Assembly (NCBI RefSeq): GCF_036013645.1
Contig: NZ_CP107869.1
Coordinates: 5,518,001-5,582,000 of the forward strand
Source of the DNA: Streptomyces sp. NBC_00490
Lineage (GTDB): Bacteria; Actinomycetota; Actinomycetes; Streptomycetales; Streptomycetaceae
DNA length: 64,000 bases
Direction: 5' to 3'
Part shown: piece after piece, positions 46,129 through 52,493 of the stretch
How positions within the stretch are numbered: position 1 is the stretch's first letter
Layout of the letters: every line of letters starts with the position of its first letter
Notes under the pieces: generated by a model
The model's input: the letters and a program-made list of their open reading frames with translations, nothing else
Databases searched by the model: none
What the model was told of the DNA's origin: nothing
Made by a program: the position numbers and the translations under genes

Positions 46129-46971
46129 TCACGCCACCCGGGTGAACTCCACCGTCACCTCCGGCGGTCCGCCCGGCACGCCCCGGTAGATGCCCTTGTG
46201 GGGCGTCACGTCGTCGTAGTCCCGGCCGCGCCCCACGACCACGTGCGTCTCGTCGGCCCGCGTCCGGTTGGTGGGGTCGTAGCCGCACCAGTCGCCCGCC
46301 CAGTACTCGATCCAGGCGTGGCTCTCCCCGGCGACCGGCCGGTGGAGTTCCGCGTCCCGTTCGGGGTGGAGGTAGCCGGAGACGTACCGGGACGGCAGCC
46401 CCACGCCCCGCAGCAGGGCGACGGTGAGGTGGGTGATGTCCTGGCAGACGCCCGCGCCCTGCTCCCAGGCCTCGGCGGCGGAGGTGTTCACGCTGGTGGC
46501 GCCGGGGAGGTAGGAGACCCGGTCGGCGACCAGGGCGGAGACGGCGACGGCGGCCTCGTGCGGGTCGAGGCCCACCGCGGCCTTCCGCGCCTTCTTCAGC
46601 AGCTTGGGCGGGACCGTCGTACGGACCGTGGGGCCGGCGAACTCCAACAGGCGCGAGCTCCTGGCCCGTTCGGCCACCTCCGGCCAGCCGGGAGCGGCTG
46701 GCAGCGGTTCCGGCGGGGACGTCTCGACCAGGCTGGAGGCCGTGATGGTGAGGTCCGCGTGGGGGTCCATCAGGTCGAAGCCGGTGACCTGGGTGCCCCA
46801 GTAGTCCCAGTACGACCAGGTCGCGGTGGCCGGGGTGACGGTGACCCGGGAGTCCAGCGTGGTCTGCCCCGGCAGCGTCAGCGGCGTCATACGGACCTCG
46901 TTGTGCGAGGAGACGGCGGCCTGGGCGTACGCGACGCGGGTGATGTGCTTGATGCGGAGGCGACGGGTCAT
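46129..46971 (-). CDS. Transglutaminase-like protein
   Basis: A 280-residue protein. Catalytic triad: Cys in GAGVCQDITHLTVALLRGVGLPSRYVSGY, His in SHAWIEYWAGDWCGYDPTN, and the Asp in YDPTN. The N-terminal domain (RLRIKHITRVAYAQAAVSSHNEVRMTPL) is the bacterial Tgl N-terminal region. It is last in a three-gene operon with an alpha-E protein and a circularly permuted ATP-grasp protein, whose stop and start touch. Across actinobacteria these three occur together; the reaction is probably peptide ligation followed by cleavage or cross-linking, but no substrate is established. Confidence 0.92.
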   Translation of the reverse strand: MTRRLRIKHITRVAYAQAAVSSHNEVRMTPLTLPGQTTLDSRVTVTPATATWSYWDYWGTQVTGFDLMDPHADLTITASSLVETSPPEPLPAAPGWPEVAERARSSRLLEFAGPTVRTTVPPKLLKKARKAAVGLDPHEAAVAVSALVADRVSYLPGATSVNTSAAEAWEQGAGVCQDITHLTVALLRGVGLPSRYVSGYLHPERDAELHRPVAGESHAWIEYWAGDWCGYDPTNRTRADETHVVVGRGRDYDDVTPHKGIYRGVPGGPPEVTVEFTRVA

Positions 46972-46972
46972 G

Positions 46973-47905
46973 TCAGGCTCCTTCCTGGGCCCACACCACG
47001 GGCCCCTGGTACGGGAAGAACCGCTCCGCGACCCCCTCTGCCGAGTGCAGACAGGCCTGCTGCAAGTCCTGGAGCAGGTCGGGGAGTTGATCCTGGAGGG
47101 CGTGCGAGTCGAGGTACTCCAGGCGGGTGCGCAGCCGGCCGATCGGGCGGCGCGCCGGGTCCTGGCGGGGGCGGCCCAGCGCGCTGAGGCACTCCTCCGC
47201 GGTGGTCAGCGCGTGCAGTGCCGAGCGCGGGAAGCCCCGGTCCAGGAGCAGGAACTCGGCGACCCGGGCGCTGTCGCCGAAGCCGCTGTGCACGCGCGCG
47301 TACGCCTCGTCGGCACCGGACGCGCTCAGCAGCGTCGTCCAGTCGGGCGCGTGCGCGGCGTCCAGCACCCGCACGGACAGCAGCCGTACGGTCATGTCCA
47401 CCCGTTCGAGGCTGCGCCCCAGCACCACGAACCGCCAGCTGTCGTCCCGGCTCATCGTGGAGTCGGCGAGCCCGAAGAACAGCGCGGCACGCGCGCGTAC
47501 CAGCTCCAGATAGCCGTACGGGCCCGTACGGCGGGCCGCGCGCCGCTGGTCGGCGAGCGCGTGCCAGGTGGAGTTGAGGCACTCCCACATCTCGGAGGAG
47601 ACGGCCTCACGGGCGCTGCGGGCGTTCAGCCGCGCCGCGCCCAGCGCGCCCTCGATCGAGCAGGTCGAGCGGGCGTCGAAGGCGAGCTGGTCGAGGACCT
47701 GCTGCATGTCGACGCGCTCGTCGCCCGCGTCGACGCCGAGGATCGCGTACAGCGACCGGCAGGCCACGTCCTCGTCGCGCCAGGGGTCCTCCAGCATGCG
47801 GTGAAGATACGCGTCGAGGATGCGCCCGGTGGCGTCCGCCCGCTCGACATACCGCCCGGTCCAGGTCAGTGCCTCGGCTATCCGGGAGAGGATCACGTCG
47901 CTCAT
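46973..47905 (-). CDS. Alpha-E domain protein
   Basis: A 310-residue all-helical protein with the alpha-E signature: LSRIAEALTWTGRYVERADATGRILDAYLHRMLEDPW, DVACRSLYAILG, NSTWHALADQRRAARRTGPYGYLELVRARAALFFGLADSTMSRDDSWRFVVLGRSLERVDMTVRLL. Alpha-E domains are found only in this operon type and are thought to assist the neighbouring ATP-grasp enzyme. The start overlaps the ATP-grasp stop by four bases, and the stop is one base from the transglutaminase start. Confidence 0.93.
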   Translation of the reverse strand: MSDVILSRIAEALTWTGRYVERADATGRILDAYLHRMLEDPWRDEDVACRSLYAILGVDAGDERVDMQQVLDQLAFDARSTCSIEGALGAARLNARSAREAVSSEMWECLNSTWHALADQRRAARRTGPYGYLELVRARAALFFGLADSTMSRDDSWRFVVLGRSLERVDMTVRLLSVRVLDAAHAPDWTTLLSASGADEAYARVHSGFGDSARVAEFLLLDRGFPRSALHALTTAEECLSALGRPRQDPARRPIGRLRTRLEYLDSHALQDQLPDLLQDLQQACLHSAEGVAERFFPYQGPVVWAQEGA

Positions 47906-49449
47906 TGCTGCTGCGCTCCTTCCTGTACGGCGGCGGGGGCGCCGTCGGGACCCAGCTGACGTGGTGCGACGCCCGGCACGGCCGTCCCGGCGCTCGGTTC
48001 CTCGGGATGCTCGGCGGGCCCCTCGGCGAGGACCCAGGTGTCCTTGGAGCCGCCGCCCTGACTGGAGTTGACGATCAGGTTGCCCTCCTGGAGGGCGACC
48101 CGGGTGAGGCCGCCGGGCAGGACCCAGATGTCGTCGCCGTCGTTGACCGCGAAGGGTCTGAGGTCGATGTGGCGGGGTGCCATGCGTTCACCGGCGAGGG
48201 TGGGGGAGGTGGACAGGGCGACGGGCCGCTGGGCGATGTAGCCGCGCGGGTCGGCGATGACGGCCTTCCTGGTCCGCTCCAGGGTTGCCTGGTCCGCCTT
48301 GGGCCCGATGACGATGCCCTGGCCGCCGGCGCCGTCGACGGGCTTGATGACGAGCTCGCCGATCTGGTCGAGGACGGCGTCCAGTTGCCCCGGCTCGTCG
48401 GGCCGGAAGGACTCCACGTTGGGCAGCACGGGCTCCTCGCCGAGGTAGTACCGGATCAGGTCCGGCACGTACGTGTAGAGCAGCTTGTCGTCCGCGATGC
48501 CGTTGCCGACGGCGTTGGCGAGGGTGACGTTGCCCGCCATGGCCGCGTTCATGATCCCCGGGCAGCCGATCACCGAGTCGGGCCGGAAGTGCAGCGGATC
48601 GAGGAAGTCGTCGTCGAGGCGCCGGTATACGACATGGACCGGCATCTCGCCGCGGGTGGTCCGCATCCACACCCGGTTGTTCCGGCACGCCAGATCGTGC
48701 CCCTCGACGAGCTGCACCCCCATCAGCCGGGCCAGCAGGGCGTGTTCGAAGTAGGCCGCGTTGCTGGGCCCCGGGGTGAGCACGACGACCCGGGGGTCCG
48801 CCGTACCGCCGGGGGCGGCGGCGCGCAGGGCGGCGAGCAGCTTCTGCCCGTACCCGTCGACGGGCAGGACGTGCTGCTCGGCGAAGAGGGAGGGGAAGAC
48901 CCGGGTCATGGCACGCCGGTTCTCGATGACGTATGACACCCCGCTGGGCACCCGCACGTTGTCCTCGAGCACCCGGAAGTCCCCGGCCTCGTCCCGGACG
49001 AGATCGATTCCGGCCACATGGATCCGTACCCCGCCGGGTGGTTCGACCCCGTGGGCCGCGCGGTGGAAGTGGGGTGAGTTGAGCAGCAGCCGCCAGGGCA
49101 CGACGCCGTCCTCGAAGGCCCGGCAGTGTCCGTAGGCGTCGGCGAGATAGGCCTCCAGGGCCCGCACCCGCTGGCTCACCCCGCGTTGTACGAGGTCCCA
49201 TTCGAGGGCCTCGAGGATCCTCGGCACCAGGTCCAGCGGCCAGGGCCGCTCCTCGCCCGCGAAGGCGTACGTCACGCCCCGGTCGGTGAACGCCCGGGCC
49301 ATCTGGTCGGCCCGGAAGCGCAGTTCGCTCGGCTCGATCGGCTGCAGGGCCGCCAGCACCGGCTCGTAGGCGGTCCTGACCTCACCCGGCCGCACAAACA
49401 TCTCGTCCCACGCGTCGGCCAACGCGTACGCGTCAAATATGTCCGCCAT
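47902..49449 (-). CDS. Circularly permuted ATP-grasp protein
   Basis: A 515-residue protein of the CP_ATPgrasp_1 family. Recognisable parts are YLADAYGHCRAFEDGVVPWRLLLNSPHF, the VPSGVSYVIENRRAMTRVFP segment, GPSNAAYFEHALLARLMGVQLVEGHDL and the nucleotide-binding LVIKPVDGAGGQGIVIGP. It should form an amide bond in an ATP-dependent way, likely making or modifying a peptide that the partner transglutaminase handles. First gene of the operon. The ATG at 49449 has no ribosome site; TAACGT lies exactly six bases upstream, so the mRNA is probably leaderless. The last 50 residues are an Ala/Pro-rich tail. Confidence 0.92.
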   Translation of the reverse strand: MADIFDAYALADAWDEMFVRPGEVRTAYEPVLAALQPIEPSELRFRADQMARAFTDRGVTYAFAGEERPWPLDLVPRILEALEWDLVQRGVSQRVRALEAYLADAYGHCRAFEDGVVPWRLLLNSPHFHRAAHGVEPPGGVRIHVAGIDLVRDEAGDFRVLEDNVRVPSGVSYVIENRRAMTRVFPSLFAEQHVLPVDGYGQKLLAALRAAAPGGTADPRVVVLTPGPSNAAYFEHALLARLMGVQLVEGHDLACRNNRVWMRTTRGEMPVHVVYRRLDDDFLDPLHFRPDSVIGCPGIMNAAMAGNVTLANAVGNGIADDKLLYTYVPDLIRYYLGEEPVLPNVESFRPDEPGQLDAVLDQIGELVIKPVDGAGGQGIVIGPKADQATLERTRKAVIADPRGYIAQRPVALSTSPTLAGERMAPRHIDLRPFAVNDGDDIWVLPGGLTRVALQEGNLIVNSSQGGGSKDTWVLAEGPAEHPEEPSAGTAVPGVAPRQLGPDGAPAAVQEGAQQQ

Positions 49450-49461: not shown

Positions 49462-49759
49462 GAGGCGCCACGTGACGCGACGATCACCCGTGGATTTCGG
49501 GCAGCGTACGCGGAGAGCGGGATTCCCTTTGCGGAGGCCTTCTGTGGGTAGTGCCCACCAGCATCAGCTTGTTGCAACCCGACGGGCGGAGGCGCGGATA
49601 ATCGGGGGCATACAGGTGGTTTCCCTCGGTCACAGGGGACGGAGCCGTGTTGCGGAGCAGGAGCGGTCCGCGCATAGTTGCGGACCCGTAGGGGTGTGTC
49701 GGTGCCACGAGCGCGCGCACGCCGGGCACGAGAGGCTGGATACGGGGGTGGGCTGGGCG
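49462..49759. promoter_or_regulatory. Divergent promoter region with a 7-base inverted repeat
   Basis: No gene. GGTCCGC-N8-GCGGACC (49665-49686) is a perfect inverted repeat whose spacer contains CATAGT, a -10-like element, 74 bases before the LuxR gene start. It could be the operator for that regulator. An in-frame extension of the LuxR ORF to 49472 has poor codon use and is not part of the gene. Confidence 0.45.
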
Positions 49760-50791
49760 ATGGCCGGGCACGGGACGGACGAGCACCCACACGGTGCTGA
49801 CCGACTGTGCGAGGCCGGGGATCGCGTGTATTCCCGGGCCGTACGGCGCGGCCGCGTGCCGCGCGAGGACGCCGGGCCGGTGCCCTGCCTGCTGGAGCTG
49901 GCGCTGCTGCACCCGGACCCCGACGACATGGACTGGCTCGTGCCGACCTCCCCGCAGGAGGTCATGACGCGGCTGCTGCGCGGGGTCCACGAGGAGGTGA
50001 GCGCGAGCCAGCGGCGGATGGGGTCGGCGGTGGCCGCCTTCGAGTGGTACGCGGGACTGGCGCCGCAGCAGCGCTCCTCGGCCGCGGAGGGCTCCTCGAT
50101 CCGGGTCCTGGACGGCCTCTCCCGGATCCAGGCCGCGATGGACGCGGCGACGGAGGCGTGCACGACGGAGGTCCTGACCGTGCAGCCGGGCGGTATCCGC
50201 CCCGAACACGAGCTGACGGAGGGCCTGCACCGGGCGCTGGCGCTGCGCGGCCGGGGTGTGCGGATGCGGGACCTCTACACGCATGTGGCGCGGCACGGGC
50301 AGGGCCTGCTGAACTATCTGGAGCTGATGGGCGACGCGGTGGAGGCCAGGACCCTCGACGAGGTCATCGACCGGCTGATCCTCTTCGACCGCACGGTCGC
50401 CTTCATCCCGGCGAGCCCGGACCGCACGCTGGCCCTGGAGCTGCGCCACCCGGCGCTGGTGAACTACCTGTTCACGACCTTCGAGCGGCTGTGGCGGCTC
50501 GCGATCCCGCTGACCGCTCCGCTCCCCGACACGGGCATCGAGGGCATCTCCCACCGCGAGCAGTCCATCGCGGCACTCCTGGCGGAGGGCCACCAGGACG
50601 CGGTGATCGCGGAACGGCTCGGCATCAGCGTCCGCACCTGCCGGGCGCACATCGCGCGGCTGTCGGAGACGCTGGGCGCGGCGAGCCGGACGCAGCTGGG
50701 CGTACGCATCGCGCAGGTGGGCCTGGACGGCCCCCGGGACGCGGGCCCGTACCTCAGTGTTCCCGGTCAGGGGTCTCCGACGGTCCGCTGA
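49760..50791 (+). CDS. LuxR-type regulator with TrmB/PLD-like N-terminal domain (1)
   Basis: A 343-residue regulator. I place the start at the ATG at 49760 because the predicted N-terminus (HPHGADRLCEAG) then aligns with that of the paralogue at 50816 (HPHAVTTLCEEG); a GTG at 49748 is possible. Residues about 20-100 contain RGRVPREDAGPVPCLLELALLHPDPDD; 120-250 form the PLD-like sensor (TEVLTVQPGGIRPEHELTEGLHRALALRGRGVRMRDLY, DRTVAFIPASPDRTLALELRHPALVNYL). The C-terminal LuxR HTH reads HREQSIAALLAEGHQDAVIAERLGISVRTCRAHIARLSETLGA. It converges on its paralogue, ending 24 bases from it. Confidence 0.85.
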   Translation: MAGHGTDEHPHGADRLCEAGDRVYSRAVRRGRVPREDAGPVPCLLELALLHPDPDDMDWLVPTSPQEVMTRLLRGVHEEVSASQRRMGSAVAAFEWYAGLAPQQRSSAAEGSSIRVLDGLSRIQAAMDAATEACTTEVLTVQPGGIRPEHELTEGLHRALALRGRGVRMRDLYTHVARHGQGLLNYLELMGDAVEARTLDEVIDRLILFDRTVAFIPASPDRTLALELRHPALVNYLFTTFERLWRLAIPLTAPLPDTGIEGISHREQSIAALLAEGHQDAVIAERLGISVRTCRAHIARLSETLGAASRTQLGVRIAQVGLDGPRDAGPYLSVPGQGSPTVR

Positions 50792-50815
50792 GGCAGCCCG
50801 GGCCGGGCCCGGCTG

Positions 50816-51826
50816 TCACGAGGGGCGCTCTCCCCCTGTCGTCGGCTGGTCCGACTTGAGGATTCCGGACTCGGCTATGAGGAAGCCGAGCTGGGCGCGG
50901 CTGCCACTGCCCAGGGCCGCGGCCAGCTTGGCGATGTGCGCACGGCAGGTGCGCACGTTCATGCCCAGCCGGCGCGCGATGGCCTCGTCGACATGGCCTT
51001 CCACCAGGAGTTTGGCGATGGAGTGCTGGATGTCGGTGATGCCGTCCGCGGCGGTCTCGTAGGGGGCCCCGGCGCTCAGCGGGACCGAGCGGCCCCACAT
51101 GAACTCGAAGACCTTGATCAGGTAGCGGACCAGGCCCGGGTGGCGCAGTTCCAGGGCGACTTCCTGGTCGTCGCGGGTGGGGATGAAGGCGACGGTCTCG
51201 TCGCAGATGATGAGGCGCTCGACCAGCTCGTCGATGGTGCGGTACTCCACCTTGCCCTTGGAGAGCTGTTCCACGTAGGCCAGCTTCTCGGGGCTGTACC
51301 TGGCGGTGTGCTGGTAGAGGGTCCGGATGCGCACACCACGTTCGATCAGCGTCGTGTCTCGTTCCAGCCCCTGGACGAGGCTGCGTTCGGTTCTGCGGTT
51401 GCTGGGCTGGACGGTGAGCATCTCCACCTGGCACTGGCCCGCGGCCAGGTTGAGCGCGGCGTTGATCCGGTCGCGGCCCTCCAGCACCGTGATGGAGTGC
51501 GTGGGTGTCGTCGCCTGGGCGCTGAGCGCCATGAACGGCTTGAAAACATCTGCCAGTTCGATCGACAGCTGCCTGCGCTCGGTGATCTCGTGCTCTATGG
51601 GGTTGAGCCGCTGCGCCAGGGCGATCGCCGGAGGCACCGGGCGCAGCCAGCTCGGATCGTCGGGATCCGGGTGCAGCAGGTCGAACTCGATCAAGCAGGG
51701 TGCGGCCTCCACGTCCGAGCGCGCGACGCGTCCTGTGCGCAGAGCGTTCGCATAAAGCAGGCCACCTTCCTCACACAGCGTGGTCACCGCGTGTGGATGT
51801 GTCGCGCTTGTCCCCTTTGTTGTCAA
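50816..51826 (-). CDS. LuxR-type regulator with TrmB/PLD-like N-terminal domain (2)
   Basis: A 336-residue paralogue of the preceding regulator. TTG start at 51826, with GGGGGGTGGAG just upstream. Same architecture: RSDVEAAPCLIEFDLLHPDPDD, then QVEMLTVQPSNRRTERSLVQGLERDTTLIERGVRIRTLYQHTARYSPEKLAYVEQL, DETVAFIPTRDDQEVALELRHPGLVRYLIKVFEFMW, and HTH (IQHSIAKLLVEGHVDEAIARRLGMNVRTCRAHIAKLAAALGSGSRAQLGFLI). It is divergent from the DSAW peptide gene, sharing a 114-base promoter region, which makes the peptide gene its most likely target. Confidence 0.85.
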   Translation of the reverse strand: MTTKGTSATHPHAVTTLCEEGGLLYANALRTGRVARSDVEAAPCLIEFDLLHPDPDDPSWLRPVPPAIALAQRLNPIEHEITERRQLSIELADVFKPFMALSAQATTPTHSITVLEGRDRINAALNLAAGQCQVEMLTVQPSNRRTERSLVQGLERDTTLIERGVRIRTLYQHTARYSPEKLAYVEQLSKGKVEYRTIDELVERLIICDETVAFIPTRDDQEVALELRHPGLVRYLIKVFEFMWGRSVPLSAGAPYETAADGITDIQHSIAKLLVEGHVDEAIARRLGMNVRTCRAHIAKLAAALGSGSRAQLGFLIAESGILKSDQPTTGGERPS

Positions 51827-51843
51827 ATCTCCACCCCCCAGGG

Positions 51844-51859
51844 TCCTGAACGTGCAGGA
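51844..51859. promoter_or_regulatory. Inverted repeat between divergent LuxR and peptide genes
   Basis: TCCTG-N6-CAGGA, a perfect 5-base inverted repeat, 18 bases upstream of the regulator start and 82 bases before the peptide start. A plausible site for the adjacent LuxR protein. A TTATCT element near 51912 could be the -10 box of the peptide gene. Confidence 0.4.
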
Positions 51860-51940
51860 ACATGATGCATCGATTGTGTGGCCATGACGTGCCCGAATGA
51901 GCCATCGTCTTATCTCACGGGGTGAAGAGGGGACCTTCAA

Positions 51941-52156
51941 GTGAGGACGAAGCCGACTATGCAGAAGAAATTGCTTCGCTCGGTGCTTGCCGCTGCTTTT
52001 TCCGCCGTTTTGGCCTTCGGAGCGTTGAGCGGCTTGTCCGAAGCGAAGGGCGACATTCAGGCGGACAGCGCCTGGCGCGTCGCAGCCGCCTCCACGCCGC
52101 TGCCTGACGACAGCGCCTGGAAGGTCGACGACAGTGCCTGGGCGGTCGAGAGCTGA
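51941..52156 (+). CDS. Short secreted peptide with three DSAW repeats
   Basis: A 71-residue precursor. GTG start is supported by AGAGGGGA seven bases upstream; the inner ATG has no such site. Residues 1-35 form a Sec signal peptide ending LSEA. The remaining 36 residues contain DSAWRV (42-47), DSAWKV (57-62) and DSAWAV (64-69). There is no Cys, so lanthionine or disulfide chemistry is excluded. The signal-peptide codons are AT-richer at third positions than the repeat codons. One base separates its stop from the next start. I do not recognise it as a described peptide; candidate pheromone, binding partner or RiPP-like precursor. Confidence 0.8.
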   Translation: MRTKPTMQKKLLRSVLAAAFSAVLAFGALSGLSEAKGDIQADSAWRVAAASTPLPDDSAWKVDDSAWAVES

Positions 52157-52157
52157 C

Positions 52158-52493
52158 ATGACCACTCCGCCCGACGATCGCTCATTCCGTCGCGAGATGG
52201 CCACGGCCTACCGCTCCGGCTGGCACTTCATCGACCTGGTCACCGCGATCCCCCACGCCGGTGACTCGTTGATGGTGACCGTGTTCGGTGAGCCGGTGGT
52301 CGTCACGCGGGACGAGGACGAGGACCTGCGGGCGTACCGGTGTCTGCGGCGGCCTCGGGGGGCGCCGCAGCCAGTGCGGTGTGCCATTCGGTACGGAATG
52401 ATCTTTGTGAATCTCGACCAACGAGACCATCGGCTGGTGGAACCCGAATCCCCCACCTCACGGGCCATCCCAGCCACCCCCCGCAGTGCCTGA
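52158..52493 (+). CDS. Rieske-like protein without iron ligands
   Basis: A 111-residue cytosolic protein. The order WHFIDLVTAIPHAGDSLMVTVFGEPVVVTRDEDEDLRAYRCLRR and RYGMIFVNLDQRD follows the Rieske domain of ring-hydroxylating oxygenases (entry strand, GEPVVVTRD, then RAYxCxxR, then Y/F-G-x-I-F-V-N-L-D). The two Cys-x-His / Cys-x-x-His pairs that bind the 2Fe-2S cluster are absent: CLRRPRG replaces CPHRG and the second set is lost. It is therefore probably a structural or binding relic. Only one base separates it from the DSAW peptide, so the two are coexpressed. Confidence 0.65.
   Translation: MTTPPDDRSFRREMATAYRSGWHFIDLVTAIPHAGDSLMVTVFGEPVVVTRDEDEDLRAYRCLRRPRGAPQPVRCAIRYGMIFVNLDQRDHRLVEPESPTSRAIPATPRSA

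Follow-up and report, generated by a model that had tools for sequence, protein, structure and literature searches.

A repeated tetrapeptide and a covarying TrmB-LuxR regulator: a probable peptide signalling system of Streptomyces

Introduction

Among described systems, the locus reported here is closest to the RRNPPA quorum-sensing systems of Bacillota (Rap-Phr, PlcR-PapR, Rgg-SHP and AimR-AimP), in which a small precursor gene with a signal-like N-terminus is adjacent to the gene of a cytoplasmic regulator and ligand and receptor match in a strain-specific way; some of their propeptides repeat the pheromone 1-4 times (PMC11343458). A comparable layout was found in a stretch of 64,000 nucleotides from Streptomyces sp. 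NBC_00490 (contig NZ_CP107869.1, positions 5,518,001 to 5,582,000; the window, to which all coordinates below refer unless a locus is named), where comparison of sequences indicates that the locus quite probably encodes a multi-copy peptide signal together with a dedicated receptor-regulator, LuxB. The differences are that the receptor joins a LuxR-type helix-turn-helix (HTH) to a TrmB-like sensor of phospholipase-D fold and lacks TPR repeats, that the ligand core is a tetrapeptide present in up to 11 copies, that the host is Streptomyces, and that the gene of a Rieske-like protein, RSK, belongs to the set. The proposed system works like RRNPPA quorum sensing without being a member of it.

TrmB is a sugar-binding regulator with an N-terminal HTH. 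LuxB shares the sensor fold of the archaeal regulators TrmB and TrmBL2, whereas its HTH is C-terminal and of the LuxR type, and it appears to read a peptide. With the LuxR-type quorum-sensing regulators it has in common the C-terminal GerE/LuxR-type HTH, but no autoinducer-binding domain is reported for LuxB or for its paralogous neighbour LuxA. RSK, in turn, matches the N-terminal Rieske region of ring-hydroxylating oxygenases, from which it differs in having 111 residues, replaced or missing ligands and no catalytic domain.

Streptomyces is a main source of antibiotics, and gamma-butyrolactones are its best known cell-cell signals (PMC4748050). In S. coelicolor an oligopeptide signal, linked to bld261, is imported by the BldK permease (PMC11303876). 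It would share with the present system an oligopeptide signal with permease uptake in Streptomyces; that both signals are identical is only a possibility. The initial annotation of this DNA knew of no described system with these parts, and our search agrees, as no description was found in the open-access literature covered, which leaves most subscription papers outside and is no proof of novelty. Within this coverage, the locus probably represents an undescribed Streptomyces-wide signalling class, with tetrapeptide pheromones of at least 40 pherotypes, TrmB-LuxR receptors, a one-residue code (Ser-Met, Thr-Val and Pro-Leu at position 2) and a defunct Rieske protein that is either an obligate partner or the output.

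Organization and conservation of the locus

The genes lie where the initial annotation had placed all four of them, in the following arrangement:

50816-51826, minus strand: LuxB, with a predicted TrmB-like sensor domain and a C-terminal LuxR-type HTH (from covariation, the model, and fold and profile matches)
51844-51868: conserved intergenic block, candidate operator, with the dyad TCCTG-N6-CAGGA followed by AACATGATGC
51959-52156, plus strand: peptide precursor of 65 amino acids with a signal-peptide-like N-terminus (by eye) and three DSAW copies
52064-52075, plus strand: DSAW copy 1
52109-52120, plus strand: DSAW copy 2
52130-52141, plus strand: DSAW copy 3, with a differing synonymous codon
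52158-52493, plus strand: RSK, a Rieske-like remnant of 111 amino acids, with Arg64 and Pro66 in place of the first ligand pair and a conserved ATPRSA tail

The regulator gene is divergent from the peptide gene, as first described, and most likely begins, on our reading of the sequence, at TTG 51826. For the peptide, the start first given (GTG 51941) was refined, and ATG 51959 is most likely the true one, because among 36 aligned loci the GTG frame carries a one-nucleotide deletion in one (L117), reads GTA in another (L100) and is absent in seven (L091, L093, L094, L095, L098, L099 and L127), whereas the ATG and the preceding GAGG stretch persist; the 65-residue form is also present in the protein database (P0121). 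The RSK start at 52158 lies, as noted before, one base past the peptide stop at 52156.

RSK has matches in 327 of 392 Streptomyces genomes (E ≤ 1e-10); a few of these matches are weak, and at least one (G048, in an open frame of 414 amino acids) resembles an ordinary oxygenase. Across 345 genomes of the class, 29 gave matches and 27 of these were Streptomyces. The remaining two lie within open frames of 611 and 496 amino acids, presumably full oxygenases, and RSK homologues outside the genus were therefore rejected. A LuxB-type gene starts 277-603 nucleotides upstream of RSK, on the opposite strand, in 219 of the 220 loci fetched through peptide or RSK matches (some from one and the same genome), so that the arrangement is not due to chance. 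The exception (L140, 6495-6818) is a second RSK copy of genome G023, far from its main locus and without LuxB or repeat peptide; the full gene set is found elsewhere in that genome (L139). In 217 of 219 loci the precursor stop is close to the RSK start, at distances from -10 to +8 and mostly at -4 (95) or +1 (65), a spacing that looks as in translationally coupled genes.

We also compared 26 Streptomyces genomes without an RSK orthologue, namely 20 of the 25 negatives of one survey, five negatives of another, and G086, whose sole weak match was to a long protein. A LuxB match (E ≤ 1e-30) was detected in 12 of them, none above 41% identity, a level like that of the LuxB paralogues in the present genome, which reach 42% or less with LuxA set aside. 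LuxB, peptide and RSK go together, and the conserved co-occurrence across genomes for which the initial annotation had asked is supported.

The repeated tetrapeptide

From the 220 loci, 217 entered the LuxB set, 200 of them distinct and 199 carrying the motif [D/E/N]-x-x-W (L140 lacks LuxB and L209 the motif). The precursors of these 199 loci hold 1-11 copies, 572 in total and of 40 main kinds. A single kind of tetrapeptide was present in 148 of the 156 precursors with two or more copies, while shuffling of the copies among precursors (2000 times) left 6.5 uniform precursors on average and 15 at most. Identity between copies was 1.00, 1.00, 0.99 and 1.00 at the four residues, compared with 0.35 just before and 0.60 just after them. 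Among further loci, 35 of 37 precursors were uniform. In locus L113, whose RSK is 99% identical to SVEN_3427 of S. venezuelae, the precursor holds four EPSW units.

At the DNA level the copies are usually not alike. Of the 151 precursors in which the main motif occurs two or more times, 125 encode it with differing synonymous codons, and the 26 with codon-identical copies compare with 17.8 expected (range 8-32) under independent codon choice. Recent duplication alone is therefore an unlikely source of the uniformity, which, since the copies use different synonymous codons, seems to be kept at the level of the amino acids, as expected of a precursor that gives rise to several equivalent ligands. 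The N-terminus, basic and then hydrophobic (by eye), is conserved across loci, and the repeat peptide is apparently exported, as proposed at first. The Phr leader model matched the precursor only below threshold (14.9 against 25 bits). Beside distant LuxB paralogues of this genome (L223-L228), no small open reading frames (ORFs) with repeated xxxW were found among the filtered ORFs within about 1.5 kb on each side.

Covariation between LuxB and the tetrapeptide

The two LuxB residues that follow the peptide most closely are encoded at:

51419-51421, minus strand: codon of LuxB residue 136
51356-51358, minus strand: codon of LuxB residue 157

Parsimony on two trees, one of LuxB itself and one of RSK plus downstream DNA (the flank tree), was used to look for LuxB columns whose changes fall on the same branches as those of the tetrapeptide. 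Residue 136 changed together with tetrapeptide position 2 on both: the flank tree had 37 co-changes where 12.3 were expected (P = 1e-8), and the LuxB tree had 17 where 2.0 were expected (P = 4e-11). The resulting pairings of position 2 with residue 136 are Ser-Met in 105 of 105 loci, Thr-Val in 43 of 43, Pro-Leu in 12 of 12 and Val-Val in 8 of 8; Ile occurs with Val (17) or Ile (2), and Leu with Val (10), Ala (1) or Ile (1). Residue 157 is Asp in all 148 loci with Ser or Thr, and in none of the 51 others. A larger ligand residue would be paired with a smaller receptor residue, and the Asp may face the hydroxyl.

Switches between Ser and Thr were accompanied by switches between Met and Val in 16 of 16 cases on the LuxB tree and in 24 of 26 on the flank tree; in both counts alphabetical order decided ties, and this may bias the result towards agreement. 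To avoid ties, a test was also made with independent pairs of Ser and Thr leaves joined by non-overlapping paths, and the Met/Val exchange was found in 29 of 29 pairs (flank tree) and 16 of 16 (LuxB tree), the next most consistent exchange reaching 11 and 6. With corrected mutual information, using 60 random columns as background, a z of 4 or more was obtained for position 1 with residues 109, 110, 145, 146 and 152, position 2 with 136 and 157, position 3 with 143 and 145, and position +1 with 118, 143, 145, 149, 181 and 221. All these columns are within the sensor domain (residues 109-221), and none in the HTH or in RSK reached this value. The contacts of LuxB with positions other than 2 are to be taken as suggestions.

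The rule for position 2 and residue 136 was written down before further loci were read; it allows Ala for Leu, as needed by one of them (L242). Of 81 loci read, 31 duplicates were dropped, L209 among them, and the rule fits 49 of the 50 scored, or 49 of 51 if L209 is counted as a misfit. The fit was 16 of 16 where the residue had been seen beforehand and 33 of 34 where it was read after the rule was written (some fetched earlier, unread), the new loci being related to the old ones, so that the test is not fully independent. Three distant loci (L246-L248) have DPAW or DPTW with Leu136, as the rule predicts. Taken together, recognition of the tetrapeptide by LuxB is strongly implied by the sequences, and the early idea that a regulator senses the peptide is supported for this one.

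Could these changes be a coincidence of linked genes? The three genes are adjacent and inherited together, and covariation of this sort might arise from that alone. We consider this extremely improbable, since the same exchange recurs in one LuxB column at repeated independent switches, also on a tree built from other DNA, and since RSK and LuxA, equally linked, do not follow the tetrapeptide. In the case of LuxA, this was seen at the specificity positions themselves:

49760-50791, plus strand: LuxA, a paralogue of LuxB (46% identity) and its neighbour, which does not track the peptide

In LuxA, Val136 and Ala157 were each found in 85 of 87 loci, irrespective of the tetrapeptide. LuxA as a second receptor of the peptide was rejected on these grounds, and the initial proposal of a sensor pair is not supported, as only LuxB tracks the tetrapeptide and LuxA is nearly constant at these positions (85 of 87); a LuxA-like gene was seen in 102 of the 159 loci longer than 5.9 kb, some of which may be cut short.

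Predicted structure of LuxB and proposed mechanism

The predicted model of LuxB (predicted local distance difference test, pLDDT, 85; predicted template modelling score, pTM, 0.60) matches the TrmB-like effector domain with a phospholipase-D fold (TrmBL2, E 3e-13; Nuc, 4e-6; TrmB sugar-binding domain, 1e-5), and a profile match to TrmBL2 covers residues 49-249. Its C-terminal HTH matches DevR and NarL; with the Pfam LuxR-type HTH, LuxA scores above the cut-off and LuxB 16.4 against 23.5. No autoinducer-binding domain appeared among the Pfam matches of LuxA or LuxB up to E 1, and no TPR family in the Pfam scan of LuxB, a protein that looks cytoplasmic.

From the repeats, their amino-acid uniformity, the linkage of three genes and a LuxB residue that covaries with the tetrapeptide, we infer a sequence of export, cleavage, re-import and direct binding. 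The signal peptide would direct export of the precursor, and cleavage would release several short, equivalent peptides with D-S-A-W as their core (other tetrapeptides elsewhere), which would be re-imported, most likely through an oligopeptide permease. In the cytoplasm the tetrapeptide, perhaps plus one residue, would bind the TrmB-like sensor domain of LuxB. Position 2 would be read by residues 136 and 157, and the other positions may be read by residues within about 109-153 and by 181 and 221. Binding would alter the action of LuxB at the conserved dyad, the putative operator in the stretch that separates luxB from the peptide gene. The peptide and RSK genes, and perhaps further targets, would thereby come under feedback, with RSK as a possible accessory or output. 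Each lineage would keep a private peptide-receptor match, or pherotype.

Covariation demands contact, and neither export nor return. LuxB might thus bind the repeats intracellularly, in the precursor before export, and monitor its synthesis or export, the exported peptide having some other task. A cytoplasmic LuxB would need no importer for this, and the repeats could give avidity. We regard this as unlikely, given that divergence from strain to strain, with its many independent switches, resembles the privacy of a signal more than internal monitoring, and that exported and re-imported peptides with their receptors are common in Bacillota (PMC11343458).

If the signalling reading is true, most Streptomyces species would have a peptide channel with a private word per lineage and a readable receptor code, and development or antibiotic production would have a further, so far unseen level of control. 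The locus would offer a concrete candidate for the peptides imported by permeases such as BldK and, through its many independent switches, natural data on how ligand and receptor co-evolve. It can be directly tested with synthetic tetrapeptides and single-residue receptor exchanges.

RSK, a Rieske remnant

RSK aligns (E 7e-5) with the Rieske portion at the N-terminus of ring-hydroxylating dioxygenases, the Pfam Rieske match being below the cut-off (15.9 against 20.3 bits); its model has a pLDDT of 69 and a best Foldseek E of 3e-3. Rieske proteins hold their cluster by two ligand pairs, C-x-H and C-x2-H. In the alignment to a nitrotoluene dioxygenase, the first pair falls on Arg64 and Pro66, both invariant in 47 aligned RSK sequences, and RSK seems to lack the segment that carries the second. 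With the first pair replaced and the second seemingly gone, RSK can hardly hold a normal cluster, confirming the loss of iron ligands first noticed. At its C-terminus (52473-52490), after a variable linker, there is the conserved ATPRSA tail, which could be a binding or degradation tag.

Because it is translated with the peptide, RSK may be a partner, a brake or an output. The suggestion that it binds or modifies the peptide finds no strong backing in covariation with the tetrapeptide, which was weak by mutual information (z of 2.1 and 2.6 for the best columns). Another reading takes the repeats as cores of a ribosomally synthesized and post-translationally modified peptide (RiPP), possibly with antibiotic activity; RSK would then help in maturation or confer immunity, and LuxB would sense the product. 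The repetition of cores, their invariant Trp and the obligate co-translated partner would suit this, and still we find it highly unlikely: no modifying enzyme was recognised among the four locus proteins, to which the scan was confined, RSK is without cluster ligands, its covariation with the cores was not noticeable, and a Sec-type N-terminus is unusual for RiPP leaders.

Observations that weigh against peptide signalling through LuxB

Several observations weigh against a signal of equivalent peptides read by LuxB. Regarding the repeats, 43 of the 199 precursors have one copy only, and eight of 156 are mixed (L193, L205, L181, L211, L190, L089, L093 and L100), possibly as snapshots of an ongoing tetrapeptide switch. 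Pairwise codon identity between copies is 0.797, against 0.716 under independent choice, and a common origin of the copies may explain some of their uniformity. One full locus (L209, 6690-7040) has a peptide with ITEW, no standard motif, and LuxB Leu136, and is possibly decayed or a new type.

As for recognition, the misfit to the rule is L313, with NTQW and Leu136. Hypervariable columns differ in up to 28 of the 29 leaf pairs, without a constant exchange, and the tree method is weaker for other positions, with best P values of 9e-5 (position 1) and 3e-4 (position 3) over about 330 columns.

A wide regulon is not visible from the dyad. The block at 51844-51868 occurs once in the genome without mismatch, and its five further matches, with 2-3 mismatches, hardly outnumber the four of the control, for which reason a regulon built on it was rejected. 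If the block is the LuxB site, direct targets may be this locus alone, and RSK would then be a candidate output. Signalling as proposed here does not account for the role of RSK.

LuxA, LuxC and neighbouring genes

LuxA and LuxB are convergent paralogues with 24 bases between them, as originally reported. The 102 LuxA-like genes, on the plus strand, were counted in loci longer than 5.9 kb, some of which may end before LuxA. A second LuxB-like gene stands behind LuxB in 28 loci with LuxA and in 14 without it. The tandem gene named LuxC (33 loci, for instance L146:4637-5647) does not follow the tetrapeptide at residue 136 and does so partly at 157; its ligand may be the same one or a different one. 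The distant Streptomyces loci L246, L247 and L248 have three or four LuxB-like genes in tandem, and in them RSK is about 40% and LuxB about 53% identical and the precursors have a single DPAWD or DPTWG at their extreme end.

Upstream of LuxA, at 46129-49449 on the minus strand, there are three genes that by eye alone, with no search made, look transglutaminase-like, alpha-E and ATP-grasp-type. The closest named genome among those compared is that of S. canus V4I20 (L143), with 99% identity in LuxB and 100% in LuxA.

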